This document shows, piece after piece, positions 11,899-28,695 of a stretch of DNA of 43,697 nt. How positions within the stretch are numbered: position 1 is the stretch's first letter; each line of letters starts with the position of its first letter. Below the pieces are notes generated by a model that worked only from the letters and a program-made list of their open reading frames with translations, searched no databases and was not told the DNA's origin. This stretch comes from a virus: positions 1 through 43,697 of the IMG/VR virus record IMGVR_UViG_3300009152_000078; one strand, 5' to 3'. Both the position numbers and the translations under genes were made by a program.

Positions 11899-11997
11899 TT
11901 ATCCACAGCCCTCGCCATCACCCATAAGGCTTTGCTGGGTTATCCACAGGTGCCTGTGTATATGCCTGTGGATATCTGTGGAACATCCTGTGGAACA
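11899..11997. promoter_or_regulatory. DnaA-box cluster, candidate replication origin
   Basis: There are two perfect TTATCCACA boxes on the plus strand (11899-11907 and 11940-11948). A one-mismatch box lies on the minus strand (ATATCCACA, 11975-11967), with two weaker copies of TGTTCCACA (11985-11977 and 11997-11989). The cluster lies in the non-coding region where transcription diverges and next to 16-bp iterons. That supports an origin, or at least host DnaA binding. Confidence 0.65.
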
Positions 11998-12020
11998 TAG
12001 TTAGGGGCGCCTTATCCCCA

Positions 12021-12084
12021 TGTGTCGTTCGTCACATGTGTCGTTCGTCACACCATGTGTAACAATCGTGTGACATTCGTCACA
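12021..12084. repeat. 16-bp iterons with dyad symmetry
   Basis: TGTGTCGTTCGTCACA occurs twice in direct tandem (12021-12036, 12037-12052). A third copy, TGTGACATTCGTCACA (12069-12084), is a perfect inverted repeat TGTGAC-N4-GTCACA. The gap 12053-12068 is also exactly 16 bp, so the copies stay in register. These are likely binding sites for a replication initiator or repressor. Confidence 0.65.
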
Positions 12085-12118
12085 ATAGTTGACAAGGTGC
12101 CCACCCATGTGCCCTCGC

Positions 12119-12213
12119 TTCCTAAGCCGTTCTAAGAGGCGCAGAGGCGTTTTGGCACAATGAGGCGTTCTCAGCGTTTAAACGCATCCTGAGGCATCTG
12201 AGTGGCTTAGGAA
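12119..12213. repeat. Large inverted repeat with central palindrome
   Basis: TTCCTAAGCC (12119-12128) and its perfect complement GGCTTAGGAA (12204-12213) flank a region with the 12-bp palindrome GCGTTTAAACGC (12174-12185). That palindrome is nested in CTCAG...CTGAG. The region could extrude as a cruciform or fold as RNA. Its position next to the DnaA boxes and iterons suggests part of the origin. Confidence 0.5.
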
Positions 12214-12695
12214 TAGGGCTATAACCCTTGCTGGGTAAGGGGATGCGGGGTATAGGTAGGTGTACAACGTACCCCACAATCGCCTGTATTGCTATCCACT
12301 GCACCATCGCTCCATATCGCTGTACATCGCACCACAGCGCATCCTGACGCTTCTCAGGGCATCTCCTGATCTACCCTCCAATGCCTCTATCTCCTCCTCC
12401 ATCCGATGGATGGCTGTCGCTTGGGGCGCCATATTCCAGCCCCCAGCCCGCTCCAGCCCATGGGGCATGGCTCAAAAGATTCTCAAGAATTATTCAATTG
12501 CCTATTGACAGATGTACCCTCCATGTGGAAGACTATTTGTGAAGGCGGTACCGCTTCCTTCGCAGGTTCCTTGACAATCGGCTCACACGGAAAGCGACCT
12601 TCGGGTCGCTCTTTGTCGTTCTGCCGATTGCTTGGCTTGGCGCTCATGCGCTCCTGACAACTGAAGAATCAAAACATGGTTCAATAAATTCCTCA
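12214..12695. other. Non-coding remainder of the divergence region
   Basis: No convincing gene: short frames here have no Shine-Dalgarno and no protein-like composition. It holds a GCATCCTGA motif repeated in variants (also just upstream), a TTGACA at 12505-12510 without a clear -10 at the right distance, and a UUCG-loop hairpin listed separately. The rightward early promoter should lie here but I cannot place it. Confidence 0.4.
12593..12610 (+). terminator. UUCG-tetraloop hairpin, terminator-like
   Basis: AGCGACC-TTCG-GGTCGCT is a perfect 7-bp stem with a stable UUCG loop, followed by CTTTGTCGTT. The T-run is short, so termination is uncertain. It lies ahead of the first rightward gene and could equally be an anti-termination or stability element. 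Confidence 0.4.
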
Positions 12696-12820
12696 GCGTC
12701 ACGGGCTTGCTTCGGCTTGCTCGTGGCGCTCAATGAGGGCTGGAGGTTCTCCCCCGCTCCAGTCCTGATTGAGCGCACCACGCTCCACTGGCTCACTGCC
12801 AGTGCAGTCCTGAGGAGGAC
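12696..12820 (+). promoter_or_regulatory. Gene-start RNA module 1 (P1-P2-P3 + SD hairpin)
   Basis: P1 GCGTCACG/CGTGGCGC (12696-12703, 12722-12729). P2 GCGCTCAAT/ATTGAGCGC (12726-12734, 12768-12776) with an inner CTGGAG/CTCCAG. P3 CACTGGC-tcact-GCCAGTG (12786-12804). P4 GTCCT[GAGG]AGGAC (12807-12820) presents the Shine-Dalgarno. P1 and P2 share four bases, so they may be alternatives. Confidence 0.65.
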
Positions 12821-12825
12821 ACACC

Positions 12826-13062
12826 ATGACATACAAGAACACACCCGCAAACATTCGCAAGCGAGAGCAATACATCGCTCACTACAGCGCCGATGTACGG
12901 GCACTTAGCGATGCAGAACTCCTGCACATTCTGAAGAAATCGGACGGTCTCAACACCCGCTCAGAGATCATCAAGGATGCAATCGCAGAGATCTGCGCAA
13001 GCGAACTTGCCAACAGGGGCGTCAAGTTGCCGTACCTGTCAGCGTTGCTCACGATCGGCTGA
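12826..13062 (+). CDS. Small hypothetical protein, first rightward gene
   Basis: This 78-residue protein starts MTYKNTPANIRKREQYIAHY. It is mostly helical, with DVRALSDAELLHILKKSDG and TRSEIIKDAIAEICASELANRG. The second part looks like a short two-helix unit and could be a small DNA-binding or adaptor protein (weak inference). It is preceded by start module 1 with GAGGAGG. As the first gene right of the divergence region, it is probably early. No family recognised. Confidence 0.6.
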   Translation: MTYKNTPANIRKREQYIAHYSADVRALSDAELLHILKKSDGLNTRSEIIKDAIAEICASELANRGVKLPYLSALLTIG

Positions 13063-13076
13063 GTGCGTGATCAATC

Positions 13077-13156
13077 CCCCAGCGCTTCAGGCGTGACCGT
13101 TCAATCGGTACTGGGGACTAGCGACACGCAAGTGTCGTGAATATGCCTGAGGAGGC
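13077..13156 (+). promoter_or_regulatory. Gene-start RNA module 2
   Basis: CCCCAG/CTGGGG (13077-13082, 13111-13116) closes a junction with CGC/GCG and ACCG/CGGT arms. P3 CGACAC-GCAA-GTGTCG (13122-13137) has a GNRA-type loop. P4 GCCT[GAGG]AGGC is at 13145-13156. It shares its P2 form with module 3, where the inner arm is GCTC/GAGC, a compensatory change. Confidence 0.65.
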
Positions 13157-13161
13157 ACACC

Positions 13162-13680
13162 ATGAAAGCAACAAGACAACAACTACTCAATCTCGGGGCA
13201 AGCATCCTGAGCACTGCGTACGAGGGCGGTTCCTACGGGATCGCATCGTGGGCGGTTGCCAACAGCACCTACACATGGGGCACGGAACTGGGCGAAAGCG
13301 AATTGGACGGCAACGAACACTTCGCATCGGTCACTCTGTACGACATGGAAGCGTGTGAATTGGTGGAAGACGAAGCCGAATTGGCGAAGTTGACCGATGA
13401 CGATGGCTTCAACGGTTGGGGCGGGTTCTACCGCTTCGGCACGCCACTCGTGATCAGTGAGTCCATCATTGCTGACTTCATTGAGAAGATCGGCACGGGT
13501 GAGTTCAATCAGGACAGCGTGCCTGACTACGGTCAACTACCAGTCAAGCGAGTGAGCGCTCTAGCAGGGTGCTACCTGTTCGGTGAGAATGCCATTGACG
13601 AGTTTGAGTGCGATTGTGACGCCATCGTGGCTGATGCCATCGTGCAGTTCATCCTGCTCGGTGAGGTCACATACGGCTGA
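13162..13680 (+). CDS. Acidic hypothetical phage protein
   Basis: This 172-residue acidic protein begins MKATRQQLLNLGASILSTAYEGG. It contains SYGIASWAVANSTYTWG, ASVTLYDMEACELVEDEAEL and a C-terminal ECDCDAIVADAIVQFILLG. The EGG-SY-x-I-x-x-W start resembles a small acidic protein family common in actinophage early regions, but I cannot name a function. The ATG is 6 nt after SD hairpin module 2. It is probably an early host-takeover gene by position. Confidence 0.6.
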   Translation: MKATRQQLLNLGASILSTAYEGGSYGIASWAVANSTYTWGTELGESELDGNEHFASVTLYDMEACELVEDEAELAKLTDDDGFNGWGGFYRFGTPLVISESIIADFIEKIGTGEFNQDSVPDYGQLPVKRVSALAGCYLFGENAIDEFECDCDAIVADAIVQFILLGEVTYG

Positions 13681-13686
13681 TCATTC

Positions 13687-13771
13687 CCCCAGCGCCTAGG
13701 GCGTGGCTCTTCAATGAGCACTGGGGACTAGCGACACATCCCGTGTCGTGACGATAAGACCTGAGGAGGTC
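13687..13771 (+). promoter_or_regulatory. Gene-start RNA module 3
   Basis: CCCCAG/CTGGGG (13687-13692, 13721-13726) with a GCTC/GAGC arm. P3 CGACAC-atccc-GTGTCG (13732-13748). P4 GACCT[GAGG]AGGTC (13758-13771). The outer stem and P3 are kept from module 2 while loops and the inner arm differ. Confidence 0.65.
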
Positions 13772-13775
13772 AACC

Positions 13776-14291
13776 ATGAAAGCAAATGAAATCAGAGCAA
13801 TTCTGAGTGTCAGTCCCGAAGCGGTCTTCATGAGCGCCAAGTTCAATGGGTACTTCATCATTGACGAAGTGCTTGAAGAGCAAGTGGAGGTGGGCACCTC
13901 GTGGAGGACTTCATCTACGAAGACCCGCAAAGTCACCAAGTTGAAAGGTCGCACGATCACAAGAGATCGTGGGCGTCAACAAGGATTGCAGTACAACGGT
14001 GACATCATTCCTGAGCGCCTTCCATCAATGAAGGTGAACAGTGGTCTCAACTACCGACTGCGTCCGCAGGACATCGCTGGTGTTTACACCACGATGTCGC
14101 TCAATGAGTTCCTTGAAGAGGAGCAGATTCGCATGATGGAATCGTTCACCGAAGAGCGTGACCGAGATGCGCACTACGACTCGCTCGTAGAGCAAGTCTC
14201 GGCACTGCTCGGTGTGGACATGGCAACTGCCCGACAGGGTGAGCCTCTACTTGAGGCGATCGTTGCCAAGTTCAAGGTGAGTGCATCATGA
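13776..14291 (+). CDS. Hypothetical phage protein
   Basis: This 171-residue protein begins MKANEIRAILSVSPEAVFMS. A basic stretch (TKTRKVTKLKGRTITRDRGR, about residues 48-67) is followed by helical acidic segments (LNEFLEEEQIRMMESFTEER) and VEQVSALLGVDMATARQGEPL. The basic patch could contact nucleic acid. It overlaps the next gene by ATGA (14288-14291). No family recognised. Confidence 0.55.
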   Translation: MKANEIRAILSVSPEAVFMSAKFNGYFIIDEVLEEQVEVGTSWRTSSTKTRKVTKLKGRTITRDRGRQQGLQYNGDIIPERLPSMKVNSGLNYRLRPQDIAGVYTTMSLNEFLEEEQIRMMESFTEERDRDAHYDSLVEQVSALLGVDMATARQGEPLLEAIVAKFKVSAS

Positions 14292-14506
14292 GGGACATAG
14301 TCGTAATTGGTCAAGTGATGGACGATAGAGAATTGGTGTGCCTTGTGTGCGCCGACTACTACCAAGCAGAAGCCTTACGAGAAGGTAAGGCACTGGAGTT
14401 CGCTGAAGCGTGGGACATCGGATACCCCGATGGCTACACCTGTGCGACCTGCGGTGATGCGTGGTACCCCGAGGGGTACGACCATTCAGTTGATCACAGT
14501 GCGTGA
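14288..14506 (+). CDS. Small zinc-ribbon protein
   Basis: This 72-residue protein has two CxxC pairs: LVCLVCADYY near residue 19 and GYTCATCGDAWYPEGYDH near residue 52. The spacing fits a zinc ribbon. It lacks its own start module and is translationally coupled to the preceding gene by ATGA. A role in binding nucleic acid or host proteins is possible. Confidence 0.6.
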   Translation: MRDIVVIGQVMDDRELVCLVCADYYQAEALREGKALEFAEAWDIGYPDGYTCATCGDAWYPEGYDHSVDHSA

Positions 14507-14512
14507 TCGGGA

Positions 14513-14615
14513 GCATCACGGGGGCAACCTCGTGATGTCCTCACGGTGCATCGGTCAAGTGATCGGTGCATCGTGAGGGCATTTCGCCCAATCAAGTAAC
14601 AGACCTGAGGAGGTC
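14513..14615 (+). promoter_or_regulatory. Gene-start RNA module 4
   Basis: P1 CATCACG/CGTGATG (14514-14520, 14531-14537). P2 CCTCACGGTGCA/TGCATCGTGAGG (14539-14550, 14567-14578). P3 GGGC-atttc-GCCC (14577-14589). P4 GACCT[GAGG]AGGTC (14602-14615). Confidence 0.7.
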
Positions 14616-14618
14616 ACC

Positions 14619-14936
14619 ATGGCATATCAACTAACAGTAGATGATCTTGAATTGATCACCGAGATACTGGATCAACACGAAGCGGGCACTGTCATGCAGT
14701 ACTCGGGTCGTGCGATGTACGGAGACCAGTGCTTCGGCATTGTGACCGAGGACGAGGCTTCAACATTCTTGATTCTCGGTCTTGAATTGGCTGATGCGAA
14801 CGCACAAACTCTCGGGACGATCTTGCTCCGATGTGTGCGCTCGGACAGCATGGGTCGTGACTCGGTCATCGTGTACTTCCCTACGATCTCAATGCCCGAG
14901 GGATACTCGGAAGAGGACGAGGAGGACAGCGAGTAA
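14619..14936 (+). CDS. Acidic hypothetical protein
   Basis: This 105-residue protein starts MAYQLTVDDLELITEILDQH and contains TFLILGLELADANAQTLGTILLRCVRSD. It ends in a very acidic tail (SEEDEEDSE). Alternating strands and helices suggest a compact alpha/beta fold. Acidic tails of this sort occur in phage DNA mimics and inhibitors, but nothing here is specific. It follows SD hairpin module 4. Unknown function. Confidence 0.55.
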   Translation: MAYQLTVDDLELITEILDQHEAGTVMQYSGRAMYGDQCFGIVTEDEASTFLILGLELADANAQTLGTILLRCVRSDSMGRDSVIVYFPTISMPEGYSEEDEEDSE

Positions 14937-14957
14937 ACAGCGACTGGTAGTCGGGAG

Positions 14958-15053
14958 CATCACGGGAGCGATCTCGTGGTGCCCACAGTGTTCATCGGCG
15001 TGAGTCGGTGATCAGTGTGGGCATTTGCCCAATCTAGATACCTGAGGAGGTAT
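14958..15053 (+). promoter_or_regulatory. Gene-start RNA module 5
   Basis: P1 CATCACG/CGTGGTG (14958-14964, 14975-14981). P2 begins CCCACAGTGTTCATCG and closes with TGTGGG (14982 to about 15021). P3 GGGC-attt-GCCC (15019-15030). P4 ATACCT[GAGG]AGGTAT (15038-15053), the longest SD stem. Confidence 0.7.
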
Positions 15054-15057
15054 AACC

Positions 15058-15747
15058 ATGAATAAATCAGAAGCAATCTATGACAAGGTGCAGGCAATCC
15101 TTGATCGTGCCAATCATCCCAACACGCCACAAGCGGAAGCCGAAACGGCTCTCGCCATGGCACAGAAGTTGATGATGAAGCACGGTCTTGAAGAGTCCGC
15201 ATTCGCCAAGGCTCAAGATCGCAATGAGAACATCGTGACCAACATCATTGAAGTTGGTGGCAAATGGCAACTTCGCCGTCTAGCACTCGCTGGAGCGATC
15301 GCCAAAGCCAACTCAGTCGCTTGCTATCGCTCCACATCGTGGAAAGATGGTAAGAAGGTGTTGTCGCTGGTGGTGTATGGCACCGCAGGTGACATCTTCG
15401 CTGTCAGGACGCTGTTCGCATCGGCAGACTTGCTCGCTTCTCGTGTGATCCCCAAGGGTGATCGGTCATTCCGCAGTGCGTGGTGGCTGGGATTCTCGGC
15501 GGGTGTGCGTGAAGTGTTGACCAAGTCCAAGAACGAAGTGATCGCAGAGCAAGGTGTTGGCACTGGTTTGGTACTCGCTGACAAGTTCAAGCGTGCAGAC
15601 ACTGAGATGCGTGCGAAAGTATCGCTCAAGTCTGCTGGCTACTCCCGATATTCATCGGGCAGTGGGTACTCGGCTGGTCGTAGTGCTGGTCTTTCGTTCT
15701 CCAGTGGTGGCATCGGTAACGGTGTCGCTGGAGCGCTCGGACGATGA
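15058..15747 (+). CDS. DUF2786 domain protein
   Basis: In this 229-residue protein the N-terminal domain (residues 5-45: IYDKVQAILDRANHP, EAETALAMAQKLMMKHGL) matches the DUF2786 pattern of two helices with TxxEAExAxxxAxxLMxKxxL. The middle, LRRLALAGAIAKANSVACYR, through WWLGFSAGVREVL matches the rest of the usual phage and actinobacterial version. The C-terminus is Ser/Gly-rich (SSGSGYSAGRSAGLSFSSGG). It overlaps the metallopeptidase-like gene by ATGA, and such pairs also occur in actinobacteria and their phages. Biochemical function is unknown. Confidence 0.8.
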   Translation: MNKSEAIYDKVQAILDRANHPNTPQAEAETALAMAQKLMMKHGLEESAFAKAQDRNENIVTNIIEVGGKWQLRRLALAGAIAKANSVACYRSTSWKDGKKVLSLVVYGTAGDIFAVRTLFASADLLASRVIPKGDRSFRSAWWLGFSAGVREVLTKSKNEVIAEQGVGTGLVLADKFKRADTEMRAKVSLKSAGYSRYSSGSGYSAGRSAGLSFSSGGIGNGVAGALGR

Positions 15748-16220
15748 GCATTCACGCCTACATTGACGAGGTACGGGGGAGCGTTGAGAAGCGCTCTCCC
15801 AAGATGCCCGAGCATCAAGCCACGGTGTACGCAATAGAGCATGTGGTGTCTCGTTACTTGCCATCGCAAGTGATCGCCACCAAGGATGCATACGCTTGGC
15901 TGGATCGTGTGTGTGAGACCGAGGGCTGGAATACGCCCGTGGTTGATCGCATACGCTCCACCAAGTGGGCAGGTGTCGCTGATGAGAAGCGAAGTATCAT
16001 CGGCATCAGTGGCTCCAGTACGACAGTGCTCACACTGGCTCACGAACTTGCTCACATTGTATGTGGCGAGCGTGGGCACAATGAGTGCTGGCGTCATGCG
16101 TTCGTGAACATCGTGCGAGATCACATCTCAATACAGCATGCATCACTACTGCACACCTTGTACGAGCGTTTCCAACTTCAATCAGGTCAGTGGAGGCTGA
16201 CCGATGCATCACGAGTGTGA
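15744..16220 (+). CDS. HExxH zinc metallopeptidase-like protein (TIGR04338-like)
   Basis: This 158-residue protein starts MSIHAYIDEVRGSVEKRSPK. It carries LTLAHELAHIVCGERGHNECWRHAF (about residues 97-121). HELAH is the zinc-binding HExxH motif, and a downstream His or Glu in GHNECWRH could be the third ligand. EHQATVYAIEHVV near the N-terminus and the partnership with DUF2786 fit the actinobacterial TIGR04338 metallohydrolase family. The target protein is unknown. The stop codon lies inside hairpin P1 of start module 6. Confidence 0.7.
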   Translation: MSIHAYIDEVRGSVEKRSPKMPEHQATVYAIEHVVSRYLPSQVIATKDAYAWLDRVCETEGWNTPVVDRIRSTKWAGVADEKRSIIGISGSSTTVLTLAHELAHIVCGERGHNECWRHAFVNIVRDHISIQHASLLHTLYERFQLQSGQWRLTDASRV

Positions 16221-16306
16221 ACTCGTGGTGTCCTCACAGTGCATGGGCGTTGGCTCGTGCATTGTGAGGGCATACAATGTGCCCAACTAACAAAGCCTGA
16301 GGAGGC
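16207..16306 (+). promoter_or_regulatory. Gene-start RNA module 6
   Basis: P1 CATCACGAG/CTCGTGGTG (16207-16215, 16222-16230), whose loop contains the stop codon of the upstream gene. P2 CTCACAGTGCA/TGCATTGTGAG (16233-16243, 16258-16268). P3 GGGCA-tacaatg-TGCCC (16268-16284). P4 GCCT[GAGG]AGGC (16295-16306). Confidence 0.7.
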
Positions 16307-16309
16307 ACC

Positions 16310-16564
16310 ATGGATGCAAGTATTCACAAAGTAACTGGGTTACGGATTGAGAAGTCCGATAACCCATGTCTCAAGACGATTGATCTCGTGATTGAGTACG
16401 AAGATTTGGCGTTCAGCCGTCCCCAGTGGGAGCAGGACAAAGAGTCATTCGGTTACGCAAAGTTGGAGTCAACGATCACGCTGTTCGTCAGTGACACCGT
16501 TGACATGGAGACAGTGCTGTGGCAAGCAATTGCAAACATCACTTCCCAACTCGCCAATGCGTGA
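16310..16564 (+). CDS. Small hypothetical protein
   Basis: This 84-residue protein reads MDASIHKVTGLRIEKSDNPC, then alternating strands (TIDLVIEYEDLAF, KLESTITLFVSDTV) and a C-terminal helix (METVLWQAIANITSQLANA). The pattern suggests a small beta-sheet with one packing helix. The module 6 SD hairpin precedes the ATG by 3 nt. No family recognised. Confidence 0.55.
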   Translation: MDASIHKVTGLRIEKSDNPCLKTIDLVIEYEDLAFSRPQWEQDKESFGYAKLESTITLFVSDTVDMETVLWQAIANITSQLANA

Positions 16565-16581
16565 GTAATCAGCAATGGGCA

Positions 16582-16688
16582 GTCACGGCGTGAGTCGTGG
16601 CGTGCTCGTGGTACATCGGTTCCCCCAACTGATGCATCACGAGGACGCAAGTCCACCTACACATACAAAACAGAATCTGAGGAGGTTC
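16582..16688 (+). promoter_or_regulatory. Gene-start RNA module 7
   Basis: P1 GTCACG/CGTGGC (16582-16587, 16596-16601). P2 CTCGTGGTACATCGGT/ACTGATGCATCACGAG (16605-16620, 16628-16643). P3 GGAC-GCAA-GTCC (16643-16654), a GNRA loop. P4 GAATCT[GAGG]AGGTTC (16673-16688) with one G-U pair. Confidence 0.7.
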
Positions 16689-16693
16689 TCACC

Positions 16694-17419
16694 ATGGGTG
16701 CAATAACACCAAAGCAACAGGCGTTCATTAAGACGCTGTTATTGGAGCGTGCTTCAACACTTGGTCTCAACGAAGAGCAAGTGGATCAGTACATCACCGA
16801 TAACACACTCAATGAACTCACTGCCAAGTCAGCATCATTCGCCATTGACGCCATTCGCAAGATTGAAGTCAAGCGTGTGGGCACAGATCACTTGCCCAAA
16901 GCAGAGCGCATCATCGTAAACAAGTACGCCAACCCGTGTGCCCTCTGTGGGCATCCAGTGCGGACAGGTACTGGTCACGCATTGCTCAATGCAGGCAAGT
17001 GGGCTACCTACCACAAGCAAGGTGACTGCTCTGCGGAGAGCGCTATCGTCCCCGACAAGTTGACCAATGAATCCTTCGGCACCATTGCTGATGGCTTCTA
17101 TGCGATGACATCATCGGGCACCAATGACCTCGTGTTCTACGCCATCAAGACCAACAAGGGCTTCCATAATCCTTCCATGAAGGGTCAGCGAAGCATTTAC
17201 ATGGTCGTTGGTGGTCACAAGGATGCAAAGTTGTCGGGTGAGCGTGCTCTGCATGCGATCAAGCGCATTGCAGGTCTCACGGACGAGGGTCGTAAGCAAG
17301 CACAGGCGCTGTTCGGTCAAGAGATTGGACAGTGTGGTGCGTGCGGTCGGCATCTCACTGATGAGGTGACACGCAAGCGTGGCATCGGCAATGACTGCGC
17401 AAGCAGGTTGGGCTTCTAG
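16694..17419 (+). CDS. Phage zinc-ribbon protein, DUF6011-like
   Basis: This 241-residue protein has a helical N-terminal region (TPKQQAFIKTLLLERAS), a central knuckle PCALCGHPVRTGTGHALL near residue 81 and a C-terminal QCGACGRHLTDEVTRKRGIG followed by NDCASRLGF. The C-terminal CGxCGRxLTDxxSxxRGIGxxC signature is the DUF6011-type zinc ribbon widespread in actinophages and mobile elements. Two metal sites are likely. It precedes the SNF2 helicase and may act with DNA transactions. Function not established. Confidence 0.7.
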   Translation: MGAITPKQQAFIKTLLLERASTLGLNEEQVDQYITDNTLNELTAKSASFAIDAIRKIEVKRVGTDHLPKAERIIVNKYANPCALCGHPVRTGTGHALLNAGKWATYHKQGDCSAESAIVPDKLTNESFGTIADGFYAMTSSGTNDLVFYAIKTNKGFHNPSMKGQRSIYMVVGGHKDAKLSGERALHAIKRIAGLTDEGRKQAQALFGQEIGQCGACGRHLTDEVTRKRGIGNDCASRLGF

Positions 17420-17426
17420 CCCGAGG

Positions 17427-17518
17427 GCGTCACACCTCACGGTGTGGCGTGCTCACAGTACACGGGTATGCTCGTGTGCTGTGAGGACGCAAGTCCATAA
17501 CAATTACCTGAGGAGGTA
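17427..17518 (+). promoter_or_regulatory. Gene-start RNA module 8
   Basis: P1 GTCACAC/GTGTGGC (17429-17435, 17442-17448). P2 CTCACAGTACACG/CGTGTGCTGTGAG (17452-17464, 17473-17485). P3 GGAC-GCAA-GTCC (17485-17496). P4 TACCT[GAGG]AGGTA (17505-17518). Confidence 0.7.
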
Positions 17519-17523
17519 TAACC

Positions 17524-19053
17524 ATGAATACACAATTAGAAGAACTGAGTGCGTTACTCTCGGGGCTTGATCGTGTGGCGCCAGCAATTTTGCCTGACGC
17601 TTCATTACATGCTCTGAGCAGTGCACATGACAGCGAGACCCTTGTAGACCTCGCCGAGCCTCTCTATCCATTCCAGCGTGCTGGTGTCGCTTATGCGATC
17701 AAGCAGAAGCGTTGTATTTTGGGTGACGAGATGGGTCTCGGTAAGACTCCACAAGCAATCGCAGTCGCAGTGAATGCGCACAACGAAGGGCACAAAGTCC
17801 TCATCGTTGTACCTGCATCTCTTCGCACAAACTGGGAGCGCTCGCTGAAGATGTTCGCACCATGGCTCACTGTAGCCATCGTGAAGGGCAACAAGGTTGG
17901 CGCTCTACCTCAAACTGATGTCGTGATCGTTGGTGACTCAATCATCAATGCATGGGCAATGAAGTTCACGGGTAAGTTTGGTTGCCTCATCGTTGATGAA
18001 GCACATCGCTTGAAGAGCGCTAAGAGTGGACGCACCAAGGGCGTGGCATACATCGCAAAGTCAATTCCGACTGAAGGGTATGTGCTGTTGCTCTCGGGCA
18101 CGATCATCGTGAACAGACCCAACGAACTGGTGTCACCTCTGTCATTGATTGGCAGACTTGACCGAGTGTTCGGTGGCAAGTCAGCGTTCCTCTTTCGTTA
18201 CTGCGAACCCATCCACAATGGTTGGGGTTATGTGTACAACGGAGCGACTAACACAACTGAATTGAATGACAAATTGCGTGGCACCTGCTATGTGAGGCGT
18301 AACAAAACAGATGTGTTGACGGAACTCCCAGCCAAGCGCCGTGCGCAGGTTGCTGTAGAGATCAGCGAGACTGACCTCAAGGCATACCGACATGCTGAGA
18401 ATGACTTCCGTGACTTTGTCATCGCCAATGGCGGTGTTGAAGCATGGCAGAAGGCATCCAAAGCAGAGGTCATCACACGGCTCAATGCACTACGTCACCA
18501 ACTCGGTATCGCAAAGATCCCCTATGTGGTTGAGCATGTAGAAGAACTTGTCGCTCAAGGCGAGAAGGTCATCGTGTTCGGTCATCACAGGGATGTCATC
18601 AGTGGTCTCTCCGATGCATTACAACAGCACGGAGTGGTCAAGGTAGTCGGTGGCATGAGTGATGCTGAGAAGCAGAAGTCAGTAGATGACTTCATGACAG
18701 GTGACGCCAAGGTGTTCATCGGCAACTACGACAGCGCTGGTGTGGGTCTCACTCTTACGAGTGCGTCCCATGTCGTGATGGCTGAGGTGCCGTGGACACC
18801 ATCGTCCGCCACACAGGCGGAAGATAGAGCACACCGCATTGGACAGGTCAACTCTGTCGTGGCGTGGTGGCTCTTGGCTGTAGACAGCAACAGCGATGCG
18901 ACACCTACGATTGATGATCGTATGTGGGCATTGTTGAATGCAAAGCACGAAGCGGTATCCGCAGTACTAACGGGATACGGTGAGGACATGGGTGCCGAGG
19001 GTGGAAGCATCACCCAGTCACTCATTGATGGGATTGTCGGTAACGGCGGTTGA
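17524..19053 (+). CDS. SNF2-family helicase (SMARCAL1-like)
   Basis: This 509-residue protein carries the SNF2 helicase motifs in order. LYPFQRAGVAYAI is motif Q-like (about residue 46). GDEMGLGKTPQAIA is Walker A. LIVDEAHRLKS is the DEAH box. LLSGTIIVNRPNEL is motif III. DSAGVGLTLTSASHV is motif V, and QAEDRAHRIGQ is motif VI. The layout without extra domains resembles phage SNF2 proteins and SMARCAL1/ZRANB3-type annealing helicases. A likely role is ATP-driven remodelling of replication or recombination intermediates. It is the largest gene of the rightward block and follows start module 8. The ATG is 5 nt after the SD hairpin. Confidence 0.9.
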   Translation: MNTQLEELSALLSGLDRVAPAILPDASLHALSSAHDSETLVDLAEPLYPFQRAGVAYAIKQKRCILGDEMGLGKTPQAIAVAVNAHNEGHKVLIVVPASLRTNWERSLKMFAPWLTVAIVKGNKVGALPQTDVVIVGDSIINAWAMKFTGKFGCLIVDEAHRLKSAKSGRTKGVAYIAKSIPTEGYVLLLSGTIIVNRPNELVSPLSLIGRLDRVFGGKSAFLFRYCEPIHNGWGYVYNGATNTTELNDKLRGTCYVRRNKTDVLTELPAKRRAQVAVEISETDLKAYRHAENDFRDFVIANGGVEAWQKASKAEVITRLNALRHQLGIAKIPYVVEHVEELVAQGEKVIVFGHHRDVISGLSDALQQHGVVKVVGGMSDAEKQKSVDDFMTGDAKVFIGNYDSAGVGLTLTSASHVVMAEVPWTPSSATQAEDRAHRIGQVNSVVAWWLLAVDSNSDATPTIDDRMWALLNAKHEAVSAVLTGYGEDMGAEGGSITQSLIDGIVGNGG

Positions 19054-19136
19054 TCATTGGCGCTCGGCGCCATCATGGTCGGCGCCAGTAGCGACTATCG
19101 GGGTGCCTCTGTCCTCATGGAGGTACACCATCAGTG

Positions 19137-19239
19137 CATCACGGGCGCAAGTCCGTGGTGTTCTGACAGTACATTGTCACACCGATAATGTATTGTCAGA
19201 ACATCATCCGATGTTCAATTAAGTAATGCCTGAGGAGGC
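19137..19239 (+). promoter_or_regulatory. Gene-start RNA module 9
   Basis: P1 CATCACGGGC-GCAA-GTCCGTGGTG (19137-19160), a 10-bp hairpin with a GNRA loop. P2 TTCTGACAGTACATT/AATGTATTGTCAGAA (19161-19175, 19187-19201). P3 AACAT-catccg-ATGTT (19200-19215), with stem bases wholly different from other copies. P4 GCCT[GAGG]AGGC (19228-19239). The stretch 19060-19136 before it holds another GGCGCC inverted repeat. Confidence 0.7.
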
Positions 19240-19242
19240 GCC

Positions 19243-19602
19243 ATGAAAGTAAGTGCAATAATCAATGTGTTGAATGCTGTGTACCAGCCCGATGATGAAT
19301 TGCTCATCAGGTGGCTTGATCGCAATGACTTCACTGTTCCTGACGAAGAGACTGGGTATCAAGAAGCCCCATCGGCAGACCACTGGAGCGAAGCAATCAA
19401 TCAGATGTCTTGGCTTCAACTGTTGGATGAATACGCCAACGAGACGCTCTATGACATCCTTGAATGCTTGAAGGAACACAGTGAGCCAGTAAGCGAAGTC
19501 GTGCCCGATGTTCTCAGCACCATTGAGAAGATCAACGCATACAACATCAAGTGGATGTCTGACATCGTGTCAGAGATCAAAAGCCCAAAGGAGGGCAAGT
19601 AA
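19243..19602 (+). CDS. Acidic hypothetical protein, paralogue of 19778
   Basis: This 119-residue protein starts MKVSAIINVLNAVYQPDDEL, with LLIRWLDRNDF and EAPSADHWSEAINQM. Gene 19778-20020 has the same plan (MKVSKAIELLSEINPDEEIA, ISWWESDLF, EPLSADSDEWLKAI), so the two are duplicated. Pattern: start helix, PDDE(E/L) turn, strand with W, and SAD...W-x-x-AI helix. It is coupled to a 59-residue gene by TAATG. Function unknown. Confidence 0.6.
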   Translation: MKVSAIINVLNAVYQPDDELLIRWLDRNDFTVPDEETGYQEAPSADHWSEAINQMSWLQLLDEYANETLYDILECLKEHSEPVSEVVPDVLSTIEKINAYNIKWMSDIVSEIKSPKEGK

Positions 19603-19781
19603 TGAAAGCATTAGCAACAACCAAACTGGTTGAGGTCACACTCGTCCTAGCAATAGAAACATACAGCGATAACAATGACATGGTGTGTGCAATGGATTAC
19701 ATCACAACAGCAAGCGAAGCATCCATCATTGGATGGGATGAAAGAACATTAGAAGCAACCTACAAAGGAGAACAGCAATGA
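19602..19781 (+). CDS. Small hypothetical protein
   Basis: A 59-residue frame reading MKALATTKLVEVTLVLAIET, then NDMVCAMDYITTASEASIIG and WDERTLEATYKGEQQ. The start overlaps the preceding stop (TAATG) and the end overlaps the next start (ATGA at 19778), so it is translated inside a tightly packed operon. The composition suggests a small alpha/beta protein. No family recognised. Confidence 0.6.
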   Translation: MKALATTKLVEVTLVLAIETYSDNNDMVCAMDYITTASEASIIGWDERTLEATYKGEQQ

Positions 19782-20020
19782 AGGTAAGCAAAGCAATTGA
19801 ACTGTTGAGTGAGATCAATCCTGACGAAGAGATCGCTATCTCTTGGTGGGAATCAGACTTATTCTCTACAGGTACACCTGAAGAACCATTGTCGGCAGAC
19901 TCAGACGAATGGCTCAAAGCCATTCAAGAGTTTGACGCCGAAGGCGGGTATGACTCAGTGAACGAAGAGGTTTGGAATAACCTGTACCAATCAATTAATG
20001 AAGAAGAAGGAGGCTTCTAA
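19778..20020 (+). CDS. Acidic hypothetical protein, paralogue of 19243
   Basis: This 80-residue acidic protein starts MKVSKAIELLSEINPDEEIA and contains ISWWESDLFSTGTPEEPLSAD. It aligns with the N-terminal two-thirds of 19243-19602. GGAGAACAGCA ahead of the ATG serves as Shine-Dalgarno. It overlaps the next gene by one base (TAATG). Tandem duplication within three genes suggests local expansion of a small protein family. Function unknown. Confidence 0.6.
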   Translation: MKVSKAIELLSEINPDEEIAISWWESDLFSTGTPEEPLSADSDEWLKAIQEFDAEGGYDSVNEEVWNNLYQSINEEEGGF

Positions 20021-20217
20021 TGGCAACTGAAGTTGTCGTGAAGTGGTCGTGGGAAGATGCAAAAGCAATGTACCCACACTGGACAAAAGAAGAAGCCATT
20101 GAAGCAATGGAAGAAGTTGAAGGGTATGTACACGAGAGAATCGTGGAACTCGGCAACGAAGTGCTAGAGCAAGTGTTGTACGAAATGATTGAAATTGACA
20201 AAGAAACGGAGGAATAG
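20020..20217 (+). CDS. Small acidic helical protein
   Basis: This 65-residue protein starts MATEVVVKWSWEDAKAMYPH. A Glu-rich helix follows (TKEEAIEAMEEVEGYVHERI, VLEQVLYEMIEIDKETEE). Trp residues in the first 20 positions plus a long acidic helix suggest a protein-interaction peptide. It is coupled upstream by TAATG, with GGAGG 6 nt before the ATG. No family recognised. Confidence 0.55.
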   Translation: MATEVVVKWSWEDAKAMYPHWTKEEAIEAMEEVEGYVHERIVELGNEVLEQVLYEMIEIDKETEE

Positions 20218-20219
20218 CA

Positions 20220-20471
20220 ATGAGCAACATCGGAGCACCTATGGGTGCATGGGCAGTCATCAAGTGGTTTGACTCAGGCGTGGAGGACGAACGGTACTTC
20301 TCGTTCGGCTCATACGACAACGAGATCAGTGAGGACTTTGATTCTCTCGGACAGCGAGATGATCGGATCTTCTTCTACTGCGAGGATGGCGAGGAGCAAC
20401 TGAAGGGACTCATGGGCAACAACGGTGAAGACTTTATCGTTGTCTCATACCAACTGGAGGACGCATCCTGA
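20220..20471 (+). CDS. Small acidic hypothetical protein
   Basis: This 83-residue protein reads MSNIGAPMGAWAVIKWFDSG, then beta-rich acidic segments (RYFSFGSYDNEISEDFDSLG, RIFFYCEDGEEQLKGLM, GEDFIVVSYQLEDAS). ACGGAGGAATAGCA supplies the Shine-Dalgarno and ends the upstream gene. It is the last gene of a five-gene packed operon before module 10. No family recognised. Confidence 0.55.
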   Translation: MSNIGAPMGAWAVIKWFDSGVEDERYFSFGSYDNEISEDFDSLGQRDDRIFFYCEDGEEQLKGLMGNNGEDFIVVSYQLEDAS

Positions 20472-20478
20472 TCGGGTG

Positions 20479-20586
20479 CATCATGGCTCACGCCATGGTG
20501 CGCTCACAGCCCACAGACATTGTTTGTGGGTTGTGAGGGCACTCAATGCCCGATACATTAATTAATCCCTAAGACCTGAGGAGGTC
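20479..20586 (+). promoter_or_regulatory. Gene-start RNA module 10
   Basis: P1 CATCATGG/CCATGGTG (20479-20486, 20493-20500). P2 is a 14-bp stem, CTCACAGCCCACAG/TTGTGGGTTGTGAG (20503-20516, 20524-20537). P3 GGGCA-ctcaa-TGCCC (20537-20551). P4 GACCT[GAGG]AGGTC (20573-20586). Confidence 0.7.
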
Positions 20587-20590
20587 AGTT

Positions 20591-20773
20591 ATGAGCAAGT
20601 GGATAGTAAGAGTCAATGAAACCATTGACTATGGATACGAGGTGGAAGCGAGATCCGAGGCAGAAGCCTTTGACAAGTTCTATCACCTTGATGAGGACGA
20701 ACTAGAAGTTGCGCTCAAATGGAAAGAGAGCGTGGGCTTTGAGGCACCATGGACAGCCGAGGAGGCAAAGTAA
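20591..20773 (+). CDS. Small hypothetical protein, strand-helix-strand
   Basis: This 60-residue protein reads MSKWIVRVNETIDYGYEVEA, RSEAEAFDKFYHLDED and VALKWKESVGFEAPW. The order strand (W-x-V-x-V), strand (Y-x-V-x-A), helix (S-x-x-E-A-x-x-x-F) resembles small phage proteins often annotated only as hypothetical. The ATG is 4 nt after the SD hairpin of module 10. Its end overlaps the next start by TAATG. Confidence 0.6.
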   Translation: MSKWIVRVNETIDYGYEVEARSEAEAFDKFYHLDEDELEVALKWKESVGFEAPWTAEEAK

Positions 20774-21060
20774 TGGGAAGCATGAATGCAATAGGAATGA
20801 ATGATGCTGTCGTGGACGGTCTCATTGAACTACGACAGGCGCTCTCGTGGCACCTAACATCCAATCACTACCCACCCGTACCATTGAGCATGCTTGATGT
20901 GTGCGTACTGGCGATTGAGAATGTGAGTGCAGGAAATACCGATGTCAACATCACACTCCCTGAAGGTGTGTTGTGGCGTGGGCAACCACTGGCTCCAGCG
21001 TGGGCAATCGTGGACTCGCATCATCTTGAGTCATTCATTGACGATGGGGAGGACTACTGA
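20773..21060 (+). CDS. Hypothetical protein
   Basis: This 95-residue protein starts MGSMNAIGMNDAVVDGLIEL. The ATG at 20773 is chosen because it overlaps the upstream stop and has GAGGAGG 8 nt before it; a longer version from 20749 is less likely. It contains LRQALSWHLTSNHYPPVPLS, ITLPEGVLWRGQ and a C-terminal AWAIVDSHHLESFIDDGEDY. It is coupled to the next gene. No family recognised. Confidence 0.55.
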   Translation: MGSMNAIGMNDAVVDGLIELRQALSWHLTSNHYPPVPLSMLDVCVLAIENVSAGNTDVNITLPEGVLWRGQPLAPAWAIVDSHHLESFIDDGEDY

Positions 21061-21272
21061 TGGACACACTGAGTCTCAACATCGGTGATCAGGTTGAACT
21101 CCTTGTGCAGATATACCCACAAGAGCAGTGGGTGTACATCGGAGATGTCATGGACATCACTGACACATCAGTGGTGATCTTCACCGAGGACAGCCCGCAC
21201 CATGGCGAAGGTGAGTTCCGTGAAATTGAAGTGCCTTTCGCCAAGATCATTAAAGCAGAGGTGTTCGTATGA
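21060..21272 (+). CDS. Small beta-rich protein
   Basis: This 70-residue protein reads MDTLSLNIGDQVELLVQIYP, EQWVYIGDVMDITDTSVVIF and a C-terminal REIEVPFAKIIKAEVFV. Five alternating strands suggest an SH3-like or Sm-like barrel; this is fold inference only. It overlaps both neighbours (1 bp upstream, ATGA downstream). Confidence 0.55.
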   Translation: MDTLSLNIGDQVELLVQIYPQEQWVYIGDVMDITDTSVVIFTEDSPHHGEGEFREIEVPFAKIIKAEVFV

Positions 21273-21469
21273 AGAGCGTCATGGAACACTTCAAAACCGA
21301 GGGATCGGTGCCGACAGTGGTGATCATGTGTAATCATGACTTCAGACCAGCACCTGACCTACCTTCAGATGAGTGGAGGTGTGTCAAGTGCACTGAGAAT
21401 GGCTGGGACTCTCGGCAAACACAGTTCGCTCCATGCAATGGCAACTGCCGATGCGGAGGTGAGCAATGA
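21269..21469 (+). CDS. Small Cys-rich zinc-binding protein
   Basis: This 66-residue protein has CNHDFRPAPDLP (C-x-H), WRCVKCTENGWDSR (CxxC) and PCNGNCRCGGEQ (C-x3-C-x-C). Enough ligands are present for one or two zinc ions. It is coupled to both neighbours by ATGA overlaps (21269-21272 and 21466-21469). Possible nucleic acid or host protein binding; no family recognised. Confidence 0.6.
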   Translation: MKSVMEHFKTEGSVPTVVIMCNHDFRPAPDLPSDEWRCVKCTENGWDSRQTQFAPCNGNCRCGGEQ

Positions 21470-21732
21470 TCCGATTCGTTCAAATAGGGAGCGGGTACTA
21501 CACCGTTCGTAAGGACTTGGTGGAGTCGGGTCTCTTGATCCCCTCCGTCAATACCAACGAGTACTACGGGGTTGAAGAAGTAGCCAAACTCAAGCACATC
21601 GGCAATGTCAACGAGCAGTTTGAAGATGACTTCTCGGGTGGTTACATTAAGTTTCGTGCACCCGAGGGACACTTTGTGTTTCTCTACAGCATTGACTTAG
21701 ATTGGATTAAAGAGTCGTTAAACGAGTCCTGA
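21466..21732 (+). CDS. Hypothetical protein
   Basis: This 88-residue protein reads MIRFVQIGSGYYTVRKDLVE, SGLLIPSVNTNEYYGVEEVA and YIKFRAPEGHFVFLYSIDLD. Alternating strands suggest a compact beta fold with a terminal helix. It is the last gene of the packed operon that starts at module 10, and it ends 29 bp before module 11. No family recognised. Confidence 0.55.
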   Translation: MIRFVQIGSGYYTVRKDLVESGLLIPSVNTNEYYGVEEVAKLKHIGNVNEQFEDDFSGGYIKFRAPEGHFVFLYSIDLDWIKESLNES

Positions 21733-21761
21733 GAGGCTTGTACGAGCCAGTAATAGGGTGC

Positions 21762-21875
21762 CATCAGCCTCGGCTGGTGTCATCCCGTGGATGCTCTGCT
21801 CACTGATCGGGGTAGAGCATCCACGGGGTGAAGACACTGTGTCACACCCCTGAGTTAAAGAATCTGAGGAGGTTC
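21762..21875 (+). promoter_or_regulatory. Gene-start RNA module 11
   Basis: P1 CATCAGC-ctcg-GCTGGTG (21762-21779). P2 CCCGTGGATGCTCT/AGAGCATCCACGGG (from 21784, closing near 21826), a 14-bp perfect stem. P3 GGGGTG/CACCCC with an inner GACAC/GTGTC (about 21825-21850). P4 GAATCT[GAGG]AGGTTC (21860-21875). Confidence 0.7.
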
Positions 21876-21877
21876 AA

Positions 21878-22222
21878 ATGAATAAGACAGCAATAACAAT
21901 GTCAGTAGAGCAATGGGAAGAGAAGTACAAGCCCGTCATGAATCATCTTGACAAAGATGCATCGTGGGGGACATCAGATGAAAGTGGATATGAAGGTGGA
22001 GTCATGTACGAGACCTACGGAGCCGAGTACGACTACGTCATGAAGGTTGCCAGCGTCCAGCCACACAAGGTGTGGACATGGGTAGATGGTAATGATGGCT
22101 CATACATCGTTGATGGTTGGCACATGGTCAACCGCATCGGTTACTTCATTACAGCAATTCCATGTGAGTTTGATGAAGACATCACAATCAAAGTAGACAC
22201 CTATGGAGAAGGAGCAGAATAA
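21878..22222 (+). CDS. Hypothetical protein
   Basis: This 114-residue acidic protein starts MNKTAITMSVEQWEEKYKPV. It contains WGTSDESGYEGGVMYETYGA and VWTWVDGNDGSYIVDGWHMV, a beta-rich Trp/Tyr-containing region with WxWVDGxDGxYIVxGWHxVNRIGYF. The phrase resembles small actinophage proteins of unknown function. The ATG follows the module 11 SD hairpin by 2 nt. It overlaps the next gene by TAATG. Confidence 0.6.
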   Translation: MNKTAITMSVEQWEEKYKPVMNHLDKDASWGTSDESGYEGGVMYETYGAEYDYVMKVASVQPHKVWTWVDGNDGSYIVDGWHMVNRIGYFITAIPCEFDEDITIKVDTYGEGAE

Positions 22223-22773
22223 TGAGCGAAGACACAGAGAATAAGTGCTGTGAATGCGAGGAGATCGTGGACGCCGAAGGTGACTTCGGATGGAGCACCG
22301 TCAAAGAGGATTACCTCTGCTGGGGTTGCTACGAGTCAGATCAGAATCATTCTTCAACTGTGCAACTTGTGGATGACGGCGTAGTACGCAAGTACTACAT
22401 CGGAGATCATATTCGCATGGATGAATACGGCGATGACATGTACCGATCTAAAATCACAATCAATCGTGAGTACATCCACAGTGATGCGTGGCGTGGGCAC
22501 TATGAGACCACCATTGAAGGTTGGACAGACGTCATGAACGGCTGGACAACTGGGTCTTGGGGTGATCCCATCGCTGATCGTAAAGCAACATTCAACCAGT
22601 GGGCTGAATCAGTCCTTGTTGGTGATGTCATACCACCAGTGGCTGTAGCCATCGTGGCTGATCCCACGAGCAATGTGTTCAGCATGGGCATCTCGGTGCT
22701 CACACCTGAGCCAAAAGCATTCAAAGAATGGCTGGACACCGAGTTTGACGAACTCTACGAGGCTCTGTCATGA
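22222..22773 (+). CDS. Protein with N-terminal zinc ribbon
   Basis: This 183-residue protein starts with CCECEEIVDAEGDFGW and CWGCYESDQNH, two CxC/CxxC pairs ~23 residues apart that should hold zinc. The remainder is beta-rich (KYYIGDHIRMDEYGDDMY) and then alpha/beta (PPVAVAIVADPTS, SMGISVLTPEPKAFKEW, DTEFDELYEAL). It is coupled to the next gene by ATGA (22770-22773). No family recognised. Confidence 0.6.
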   Translation: MSEDTENKCCECEEIVDAEGDFGWSTVKEDYLCWGCYESDQNHSSTVQLVDDGVVRKYYIGDHIRMDEYGDDMYRSKITINREYIHSDAWRGHYETTIEGWTDVMNGWTTGSWGDPIADRKATFNQWAESVLVGDVIPPVAVAIVADPTSNVFSMGISVLTPEPKAFKEWLDTEFDELYEALS

Positions 22774-23311: not shown

Positions 23312-23327
23312 ATAAATTAAATAAAAG

Positions 23328-23356
23328 TTGTGAATAGCAATACACGAAGGTAGATT
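23328..23356 (+). promoter_or_regulatory. Putative promoter for the DUF932-WhiB pair
   Basis: TTGTGA (23328-23333), 17-bp spacer, TAGATT (23351-23356), in a locally AT-rich gap. The predicted leader is ~45 nt and has AAGGAG 7 nt before the ATG 23408. This gene has no hairpin start module, unlike its neighbours. Confidence 0.5.
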
Positions 23357-23407
23357 TATCCTCGTGGTACGAATATCCAAACAAATCAAACTAACAAGGA
23401 GCATGAA

Positions 23408-27638: not shown

Positions 27639-27960
27639 CAGGCAAGCCCTCCTCACGAACGACACAGTCCCAACCACAAGCGCTGTAGCCAATGCTGTCT
27701 GTCCAATGGTCTCGCTTCTCAGGACTCCATGAAAGACGTGATGTCTTTAGGAGCATCATCATGATGGCAACGTCATGTGGTTTTAGACTGAACTCTTGAC
27801 GGCGGTCAATGACACGGCGCAAGTAAGTTGTCCAGAAGTCTGCTGTTGTAGAGAAGTCATCAATGGGGTCACCGTAACTGTCATTACGTTCACCATTAAT
27901 AAGCATGTCTGCTTCAGTGAGCACGTCAGTGCGGTTGTTGAATACGGGTGGCTTCATCAT
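27622..27960 (-). CDS. DUF6378 family protein
   Basis: This 112-residue protein has the signature NGERNDSYGDPIDDFSTTAD, then KPHDVAIMMMLLKTSRLSWS and DHWTDSIGYSACGWD. This compact helical family occurs in many phages near nucleotide-metabolism genes. The ERNDxYGDPxxNF motif resembles the acidic helices of MazG-type pyrophosphatases (loose inference). It overlaps the HAD nucleotidase by ATGA, so both may tune nucleotide pools. Confidence 0.75.
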   Translation of the reverse strand: MMKPPVFNNRTDVLTEADMLINGERNDSYGDPIDDFSTTADFWTTYLRRVIDRRQEFSLKPHDVAIMMMLLKTSRLSWSPEKRDHWTDSIGYSACGWDCVVREEGLPDATQL

Positions 27961-28547: not shown

Positions 28548-28695
28548 TAATTTCCTTCGCAAAGTACCAAGCGGTACGGATTGGCTTTGTATCGTTGGGT
28601 TCTAATTCAAGCGTTGTGCCCTTGACCGCTCGCCCTCTTTCGTCCATTGTTTCTGTCTCGTACTGGTACGCCCACACCATGCGACGTTTCAACAT
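28519..28695 (-). CDS. Small hypothetical protein
   Basis: A 58-residue frame starting MLKRRMVWAYQYETETMDER, then VKGTTLELEPNDTKPIRTAW and YFAKEINGQDYGCSN. GAAGG lies 6 nt before the ATG. It overlaps the start of the HAD nucleotidase by 29 bp in another frame. A possible TTGACA-N17-TATTTT promoter sits just at its start. No family recognised. Confidence 0.5.
   Translation of the reverse strand: MLKRRMVWAYQYETETMDERGRAVKGTTLELEPNDTKPIRTAWYFAKEINGQDYGCSN

Follow-up and report, generated by a model that had tools for sequence, protein, structure and literature searches.

The virus record IMGVR_UViG_3300009152_000078 was analysed as a single window, i.e. the whole stretch of 43.7 kb (43,697 nucleotides, nt) from this one record. 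In its rightward block eleven plus-strand genes, the first starting at 12826 and the last at 21878, are headed by structured intergenic modules, each with a Shine-Dalgarno (SD) hairpin at its end. An initial annotation, made from the sequence, had listed these eleven starts. All were verified, and each is preceded by CTGAGGAGG and a start codon. The modules had been described as eleven copies of one ordered set of hairpins that ends in the SD hairpin. The SD hairpin was present at 11/11 starts, but the series P1-P2-P3 only at nine (serial hairpins, termed HP). At 13162 and 13776 the same slot holds a distinct fold, a branched three-way-junction domain followed by a short hairpin (termed TL), the branch of which had been missed. 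Covariance models were built for TL (R1) and for HP (R2, which also spans the linker and the SD hairpin). The modules, all on the plus strand, are as follows.

12689..12822 (+), module 1 of gene 12826: diverged HP, R2 36.8 bits; SD hairpin 12807-12820.
13075..13120 (+), module 2 of gene 13162: TL core, in alignment A1, R1 66.7 bits, E 9.5e-15; then P3 hairpin at about 13121-13139.
13144..13157 (+), SD hairpin of gene 13162.
13685..13730 (+), module 3 of gene 13776: TL core, R1 66.5 bits, E 1.1e-14; then P3 hairpin at about 13731-13750.
13758..13771 (+), SD hairpin of gene 13776.
14506..14617 (+), module 4 of gene 14619: HP with P1-P2-P3, R2 94.1 bits; SD hairpin 14602-14615.
14950..15054 (+), module 5 of gene 15058: HP, R2 85.9 bits; SD hairpin 15038-15053.
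16199..16309 (+), module 6 of gene 16310: HP, R2 96.4 bits; SD hairpin 16295-16306; the P1 loop holds the stop codon of the previous gene (end 16220).
16573..16689 (+), module 7 of gene 16694: HP, R2 76.4 bits; SD hairpin 16672-16689.
17420..17520 (+), module 8 of gene 17524 (SNF2-type helicase): HP, R2 83.2 bits; SD hairpin 17505-17518.
19129..19242 (+), module 9 of gene 19243: HP, R2 94.8 bits; SD hairpin 19227-19240.
20471..20588 (+), module 10 of gene 20591: HP, R2 92.5 bits; SD hairpin 20573-20586; in the minimum free energy (MFE) structure ATCGGGT/GCCCGAT closes a three-way junction.
21751..21876 (+), module 11 of gene 21878: diverged HP closed by GGGTG/CACCC, R2 38.8 bits; SD hairpin 21860-21875.

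The SD hairpin was examined at the window starts and in other phages. The pattern CTGAGGAGG-N2-9-ATG had 11 matches in the window, all on the plus strand and all at module starts, compared to a mean of 0.08 in dinucleotide shuffles (n = 100). At each of the 11 starts the hairpin has the form NNCCT-GAGG-AGGNN with a stem of 4-7 base pairs (bp) and a stability of -4.2 to -6.3 kcal/mol. From phage loci 245 TGAGGAGG start sites were gathered by sequence alone, chance sites included. The pair directly outside CCT/AGG was standard in 224 of the 245 (AT 121, GC 74, TA 16, then GT and TG). The stem grew longer with weaker pairs: 4.3 bp and a mean of -5.1 kcal/mol when closed by G-C (n = 73), 5.3 bp and -5.7 kcal/mol by A-T (n = 99), 6.8 bp and -5.6 kcal/mol with a U-G pair (n = 22), 4.9 bp and -5.0 kcal/mol by T-A (n = 16). 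Mean energies in the three largest classes were confined to -5.1 to -5.7 kcal/mol. A compensation of this kind would be expected if a set stability is under selection.

One feature of this region is peculiar to module 1. In the region 12689-12696 it carries TCCTCAG (12690-12696), which is perfectly complementary to the SD core CTGAGGA (12810-12816), can pair with it and is present in relatives; the MFE structure pairs TTCCTCAG with the SD. This pairing may represent a state in which gene 12826, the first of the block, is off.

Compared with shuffles, the folding z of the upstream domains was -4.6 to -8.4 in the nine HP-type copies and -3.0 and -2.6 in the two TL copies. Controls were four stretches upstream of starts within packed gene runs, with z values of -0.7, -1.9, -3.0 and -4.0. 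Because two of these four reach -3.0 and -4.0, folding energy by itself is weak evidence for the modules, above all for TL. The case for the modules rests on covariation and position rather than on energy.

TL is a compact RNA of about 45 nt which is carried by many environmental phage contigs. A 6-bp closing stem is followed by a 3-bp arm, which is extended by a pair across a two-base loop and has an invariant bulged G. Two unpaired bases, U-G or in rare cases U-A, separate it from a second arm, which is 3-4 bp long and capped by the loop UUCAAU. One or two bases, for the most part A, then lead into the second strand of the closing stem, behind which A-C is usual. Invariant unpaired bases are G16, the UUCAA loop bases in A1 and C44 behind the closing stem. 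A second finder, which used sequence and pairing and took no account of position, returned 110 distinct TL copies; they include near-identical copies from related contigs and are not independent events. The loop variants GUCAUA and GUCGUA accounted for 22 of the 110.

Alignment A1 comprises 72 sequences. Its 14 pairs were standard in 99.6% of 979 cells, a share inflated by construction as 13 of the 14 pairs are required or favoured by the TL finder. Changes on both sides were seen at 12/14 pairs, and the covariation score was 0.656 versus 0.151 in shuffles and at most 0.090 when the structure was slid. We also used a tree-based null, implemented in a short script of our own that is modelled on R-scape, with 100 and 60 null alignments. 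Eight of the 14 TL pairs had E<0.05; a single pair outside the structure passed, columns 24-32, and it adjoins paired columns. An artefact of selecting paired sequences was countered by three controls free of such selection. First, 104 sequences were chosen by CGTG N3-4 TTCAAT alone; 71 formed all three helices, 30 none and 3 some. Second, the TL hexamer gave 73 hits in 1,639 occurrences versus 4 in 34,662 for 59 other hexamers of the same letters. Third, the A1 pair 12-15, unused in selection, was standard in 70/72 sequences with 27 both-side changes and a tree-null E of 0.01. Judged by these alignments, TL is a strongly covarying RNA family. R1 detected it in 35/93, 6/71 and 24/53 sources, fractions which are not prevalences as the sets were fetched mostly by TL-like or SD-like patterns; among close kin 60 copies were found at 17 loci. 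Certain TL phages beyond the near kin have proteins with 25-44% identity to window proteins.

A strict TL pattern had no match in the genomes of 84,980 prokaryote species; this was one exact pattern, and divergent copies may escape it. On this pattern a cellular origin of TL was rejected. Two BLAST queries with TL against named phages returned partial matches at E of about 10 (16 records) or none, BLAST on 46 nt being weak. A whole-locus query with one locus (L213) against named phages had no match.

Nine of the eleven modules fit R2, seven of them with 76-96 bits. R2, which contains the SD hairpin, also lists the two TL copies (18.5 and 12.0 bits) and seven minus-strand echoes of hairpins (11.8-25.2 bits). 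Another 27 hits outside the kin set (15.5-27.2 bits) owe part of their score to the SD hairpin, and we do not count them as HP. For the HP alignment A3, 45 rows were chosen from 68 candidates. Of those left out, four were not HP (one was TL, and three lay at a different site that is probably coding); the rest were removed by hand as near-duplicates. P1 and P2 covary: 97.6% of 1375 cells were paired, with both-side changes at 21/31 pairs. Against the tree null 6/37 tested pairs had E<0.05, and no other pair passed. The claim of the initial annotation that stem bases change in pairs was thus borne out on alignments with relatives.

Segment b behind P1 can pair either with a, the base of P1, or with c behind P2; by this model HP can form two mutually exclusive folds, a:b or b:c. 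Columns 10, 33 and 83 are A-U-A in 28/45 rows and G-C-G in 17/45. Because these columns change together in 45/45 rows, both alternatives appear to be maintained. The basis is this complementarity together with folding, not the tree-null test, in which the pairs 10-33 and 33-83 fell narrowly short (E 0.083). By folding energy the two states are nearly balanced, with mean probabilities of 0.59 for a:b and 0.41 for b:c, and both exceed 0.1 in 32/45 rows; P2 averages 1.0 and the SD hairpin 0.97. Such a balance would suit a two-state switch, and the initial annotation had proposed that a phage or host factor reads the modules. A protein-binding site through which the early genes are switched as a regulon would also fit the invariant HP pairs C46-G70, A47-U69 and C12-G31 and the U11-G32 wobble kept in 42/45 rows. 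A recognition element common to HP and TL is not visible, though the two are mutually replaceable (see below), and we consider a protein switch very unlikely. The P2 stem has 14-16 bp, or about 20 pairs with the b:c extension, a length predicted to be compatible with a T7-like RNase III processing site.

Both folds lie in a narrow slot between stop and start. For all 110 TL copies a stop of an upstream open reading frame (ORF) was found (search range from 60 nt upstream of the element to its 20th nt), the median gap to the closing stem being 8 nt (quartiles 7-11). A downstream start was found for 109/110 within the 120 nt searched, at a median of 46 nt (quartiles 44-48). Of 5000 random positions, 28 combined a stop gap within 4-24 with a start distance within 38-57. 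The onset of HP P1 had the same median of 8 nt past the stop in 57/65 rows with a stop found, one of the 65 being a TL row. We checked 15 starts without a module in the block; 14 lie within the preceding ORF or at most 2 nt past its stop, in agreement with the earlier proposal that genes in packed operons lack the module. The fifteenth, 23408, is preceded by a gap of 96 nt.

This stretch before the DUF932 gene 23408 (23312-23407) is the sole long module-free gap among the checked starts. It is AT-rich and has a plain AAGGAG SD.

The modules had been said to mark operon heads. As promoter-proximal leaders they are unlikely; the structure starts about 8 nt behind the previous stop, and promoter-like matches are not in excess. 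A scan for sigma-70-type sites gave 4 matches versus a shuffle mean of 8.9, and terminator-like matches in 12000-22500 on both strands amounted to 8 versus 7.0. Leaders of sigma-70-type promoters were ruled out by the sigma-70 scan and by the TL onset; promoters of other types or within the upstream gene could still act. Intrinsic terminators, i.e. a G+C-rich hairpin and a T run, were rejected; two plus-strand sites exist and neither is an upstream domain. Because a promoter could hardly fit between the stop and the structure, and because promoters and terminators are not in excess, the modules most likely are heads of translation units within a transcript, between non-overlapping genes.

This placement would equally suit a translation insulator and restart site that operates without cleavage. 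The structure would halt terminating ribosomes from sliding onward, and the A-rich strand and the tuned SD hairpin would set the initiation rate. A distance of 8 nt behind the stop corresponds to the edge of a terminating ribosome, the genes between modules overlap and look coupled, and SD hairpin energies are alike across the large pair classes. A pure insulator leaves unexplained why a self-cleaving ribozyme occupies this slot in other phages (see below) and why TL has the invariant unpaired bases G16, UUCAA and C44. We regard it as possible, though on the unlikely side.

In related phages module copies were found at homologous starts, as the initial annotation would have it. A first comparison used a loose regular expression for HP, and the test was redone with model-scored copies: 120 start sites in the window and in 17 loci, with 4 missed, were clustered by the downstream protein, excluding weaker R2 hits. 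In 10 of 23 gene families with at least two members, some phages have TL and others HP before the same gene. The closest such pair of proteins is 97.5% identical (HP at 16573 of the window, TL at 1877 of locus L052). Nine of the ten families contain a pair of at least 62% identity; one reaches only 35%. The SD hairpin is retained across these swaps. Interchange is to be expected of any strong block, and stable compact folds at gene boundaries could be message stabilisers, i.e. junctions or hairpins which block 5'-to-3' or 3'-to-5' exonucleases and shield neighbouring messages after random cleavage. A stabiliser needs neither the alternative pairing via column 33 in 45/45 aligned HP copies nor a fixed distance to the start, and we consider it improbable. 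The relatives have only part of the module-headed genes; small-gene content varies and the modules seem to stay at the junctions. This could point to DNA elements, such as integron-like folded cassette boundaries or operators, with RNA structure being incidental. The fixed distances to stop and start and the covariation of the SD hairpin speak against a DNA-level element, as do G-U pairs (P1 pair 11-32), which are tolerated in RNA alone; we give such an element hardly any credence.

In other phage contigs the SD hairpin sits behind sequences with a hammerhead core. A scan for hammerhead core plus SD yielded 39 stretches, then 46 distinct matches across all loci. In 38 of the 46, from 25 loci, stems I and III of at least 4 bp surround GUC, and the SD stem has at least 4 bp in 37 of these. 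In the other eight the SD stem has 2 bp in seven and 4 bp in one (L249, stem I broken). A stricter hammerhead finder, run before the pattern scan, had accepted seven cases, six with TGAGGAGG within 60 nt. The best phage case reached 32.8 bits with Rfam Hammerhead_1, below the gathering score of 34 (E 1.3e-4), and a gathering scan of 12 hammerhead-type loci had no match. In the window a strict finder (CUGANGA, GAAA core, three stems, cleavable H17) detected no hammerhead. Because none of 40 window proteins matched ten loci with hammerhead-like cores, the arrangement appears to span phages that are not visibly related.

Two further features of the hammerhead phages were seen by eye. An element of the approximate form AGTA-NNN-CCAC-AAGCC stem GGCTT-TTAGT-TTATT recurs upstream of the SD hairpin (L048 1347-, 206-, 4099-, 3705-; L066 4590-, 5260-; L070 967+, 1709+, 2118+; L078 8526-, 8934-; L015 6991-). 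It is neither hammerhead nor TL and could be another ribozyme or a processing hairpin. In many hammerhead copies (L015, L026, L031, L048, L217-L249) loop II TAGTT/TGGTT is complementary to AACTA/AACCA just before the SD hairpin. Possibly, this is a tertiary contact that includes the start region.

Comparison with catalogued RNAs did not name the modules. With Rfam release 15 the whole window had no match at the gathering score. At E<=5 eight matches below threshold were obtained in the region 12600-22000; no TL core was covered by any of them, and no ribozyme family was among them. The best was a full-length match to RF00515, the PyrR binding site, at 21711-21823 (35.7 bits, gathering 54, E 0.051). 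It overlaps module 11 and is probably a chance match on a long hairpin. The others, to microRNA, small RNA and small nucleolar RNA families, fell on HP hairpins or nearby. For the TL loci of other phages the sole match at E<=2 was mir-33 (E 0.65), away from TL. A known RNA family was thus ruled out at gathering and, for TL, also at loose thresholds; in the searches made TL is an RNA without a catalogued family match. ARAGORN found no tRNA or tmRNA gene in the window. In the literature searched (titles and abstract openings, with partial coverage) no earlier description of TL or HP modules was recognised.

Of the functions which the initial annotation had offered, we favour mRNA processing. We propose that the eleven elements are an intercistronic RNA punctuation which acts by separation in a polycistronic early transcript, a reading to which we give about an even chance. 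The computed basis comprises the structures, their covariation, the placement between stop and start, the TL/HP interchange and the hammerheads in the slot of other phages; cleavage at TL and HP would be the added step. The module-headed genes would be co-transcribed. Just behind the stop of the previous gene, after about 8 nt, the folded RNA (TL junction or HP hairpins) would form, and a short, mostly A-rich single strand would join it to the SD hairpin, of about -5 to -6 kcal/mol, and the start. The message would be separated at the upstream structure, which might cleave itself or be cut by a host nuclease, for instance by RNase III acting on the long P2 stem. The downstream gene would thereby start with a folded 5' end of its own and an SD hairpin which ribosomes can unfold. 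The two genes would then also be translated independently, unlike the overlapping genes between modules. Self-cleavage is the established activity of the hammerhead class. Presumably, the hammerheads of other phages cleave themselves, and TL and HP may do the same job.

Several observations weigh against punctuation by cleavage. A pure translation role without cleavage accounts for the same placement. TL does not depend on the SD hairpin, because the CTGAGGAGG core was not found within 80 nt of TL in 59/110 copies. Among the SD stems the small pair classes deviate (G-T closed -3.3 kcal/mol, n = 5; C-G closed -8.0 kcal/mol, n = 2), and 26 of the 245 sequence-selected sites, chance sites included, have no 4-bp stem. 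The TL copies of the window are only modestly more stable than shuffles. TL has no known catalytic core, and neither of the Rfam scans at loose thresholds (12600-22000, E<=5; TL loci of other phages, E<=2) matched it to any ribozyme. R1 found TL in 0/26 hammerhead loci and in none of another hammerhead set. Because TL and hammerheads were not found in the same locus, their equivalence across phage groups is one of position only.

A bolder version of the punctuation reading is that TL represents a class of self-cleaving ribozymes not described before, or else resembles tRNA and is cut by a tRNA-processing enzyme of the host, and that it is an interchangeable punctuation mark, with HP a bistable RNA in the same job and hammerheads the version of other, not visibly related phages. 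We advance this tentatively and hold it to be unlikely; the invariant unpaired bases and the slot in common with hammerheads are suggestive of TL self-cleavage and nothing beyond that. In the parts available of two reports, what hammerhead ribozymes do in prokaryotes and phages is treated as an open question (PMC6155905, PMC10085705), and two ribozyme classes at one location are taken to mean that other RNAs there may be ribozymes too (PMC10085705). Because of this shared-location logic TL would be a good ribozyme candidate. A single arrangement of stop, structured RNA, SD hairpin and start, filled by hammerheads or by two other covarying RNAs, offers a testable role, namely dividing a polycistronic message and restarting translation. 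The modules may also serve as markers when gene starts of uncultured phages are annotated.

The host of the window phage is likely actinobacterial, because distant relatives of the gene 16694 protein occurred solely in Mycobacterium, Streptomyces and Gordonia phages (165 records) and because the DNA polymerase, encoded elsewhere in the window, was nearest to Streptomyces phages among the matches listed. Between the divergent gene blocks (11899-12060) lie two TTATCCACA sites, which we take to be the DnaA-box motif, and tandem CACATGTGTCGTTCGTCA-like repeats. The motif alone is not significant (0.55 expected; at least two in 15/100 shuffles); the region is possibly a replication origin or a promoter region. 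Minus-strand genes have near-identical start regions at 31674-31725 and 34029-34080 (52 nt, 90%), also at 31305-31322, which are probably paralogous N-termini. A queuine tRNA-ribosyltransferase-like protein is encoded at 28721-30292 (-), and 27957-28562 (-) has weak profile matches to polynucleotide kinase and deoxyribonucleotidase.

Among known systems, the early genes of phage T7 have RNase III processing sites between them. The modules are similar in that hairpins lie between stop and start of early genes in a polycistronic phage transcript. They differ in that two alternative folds, TL and HP, occupy one slot and that the SD is in a covarying hairpin of its own; RNase III cleavage of them is putative. 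T-loop RNAs include the tRNA elbow. The TL hairpin loop UUCAAU/UUCGAU, beside an arm with a bulged G that is invariant in A1, resembles them; TL differs in having no anticodon arm, and the variants GUCAUA and GUCGUA misfit a classical T-loop. For the latter reason TL as a standalone tRNA mimic was dropped; it survives only within the ribozyme-or-tRNA-like reading. Phage and prophage hammerheads (RF00163), as far as they are covered in the available parts of PMC3088659, PMC6155905 and PMC10085705, likewise are structured RNAs at gene boundaries, and in other phages they take the intercistronic slot before SD hairpin and start. Their CUGANGA/GAAA core is absent from TL and HP.

A likeness in genome layout exists to the start-associated sequences (SAS) and extended start-associated sequences (ESAS) of cluster K mycobacteriophages, of which the modules had been called an independent, structured equivalent. 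In the available parts of PMC3203893 and PMC12699233 these also occur as many start-linked copies in the non-structural half of the genome, nearly all in one orientation and mostly before genes with a large upstream gap. The SD lies within the repeat, and a second inverted-repeat element is just upstream of about half of the SAS copies. The SAS is described as a 13-bp consensus, GGGATAGGAGCCC, directly before starts with at most two mismatches, and the ESAS as 17-bp inverted repeats, imperfect in ways that lend no support to pairing as RNA, the authors favouring DNA-binding sites (PMC3203893, in part). With up to three mismatches GGGATAGGAGCCC had 7 matches in the window, at chance level (mean 6.46), and 0 at the eleven starts. 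The modules are therefore not the SAS/ESAS of cluster K: their arms covary, unlike the ESAS repeats, and whereas the SAS sequence is conserved (PMC3203893, same parts), TL and HP vary in sequence while their pairing is kept.

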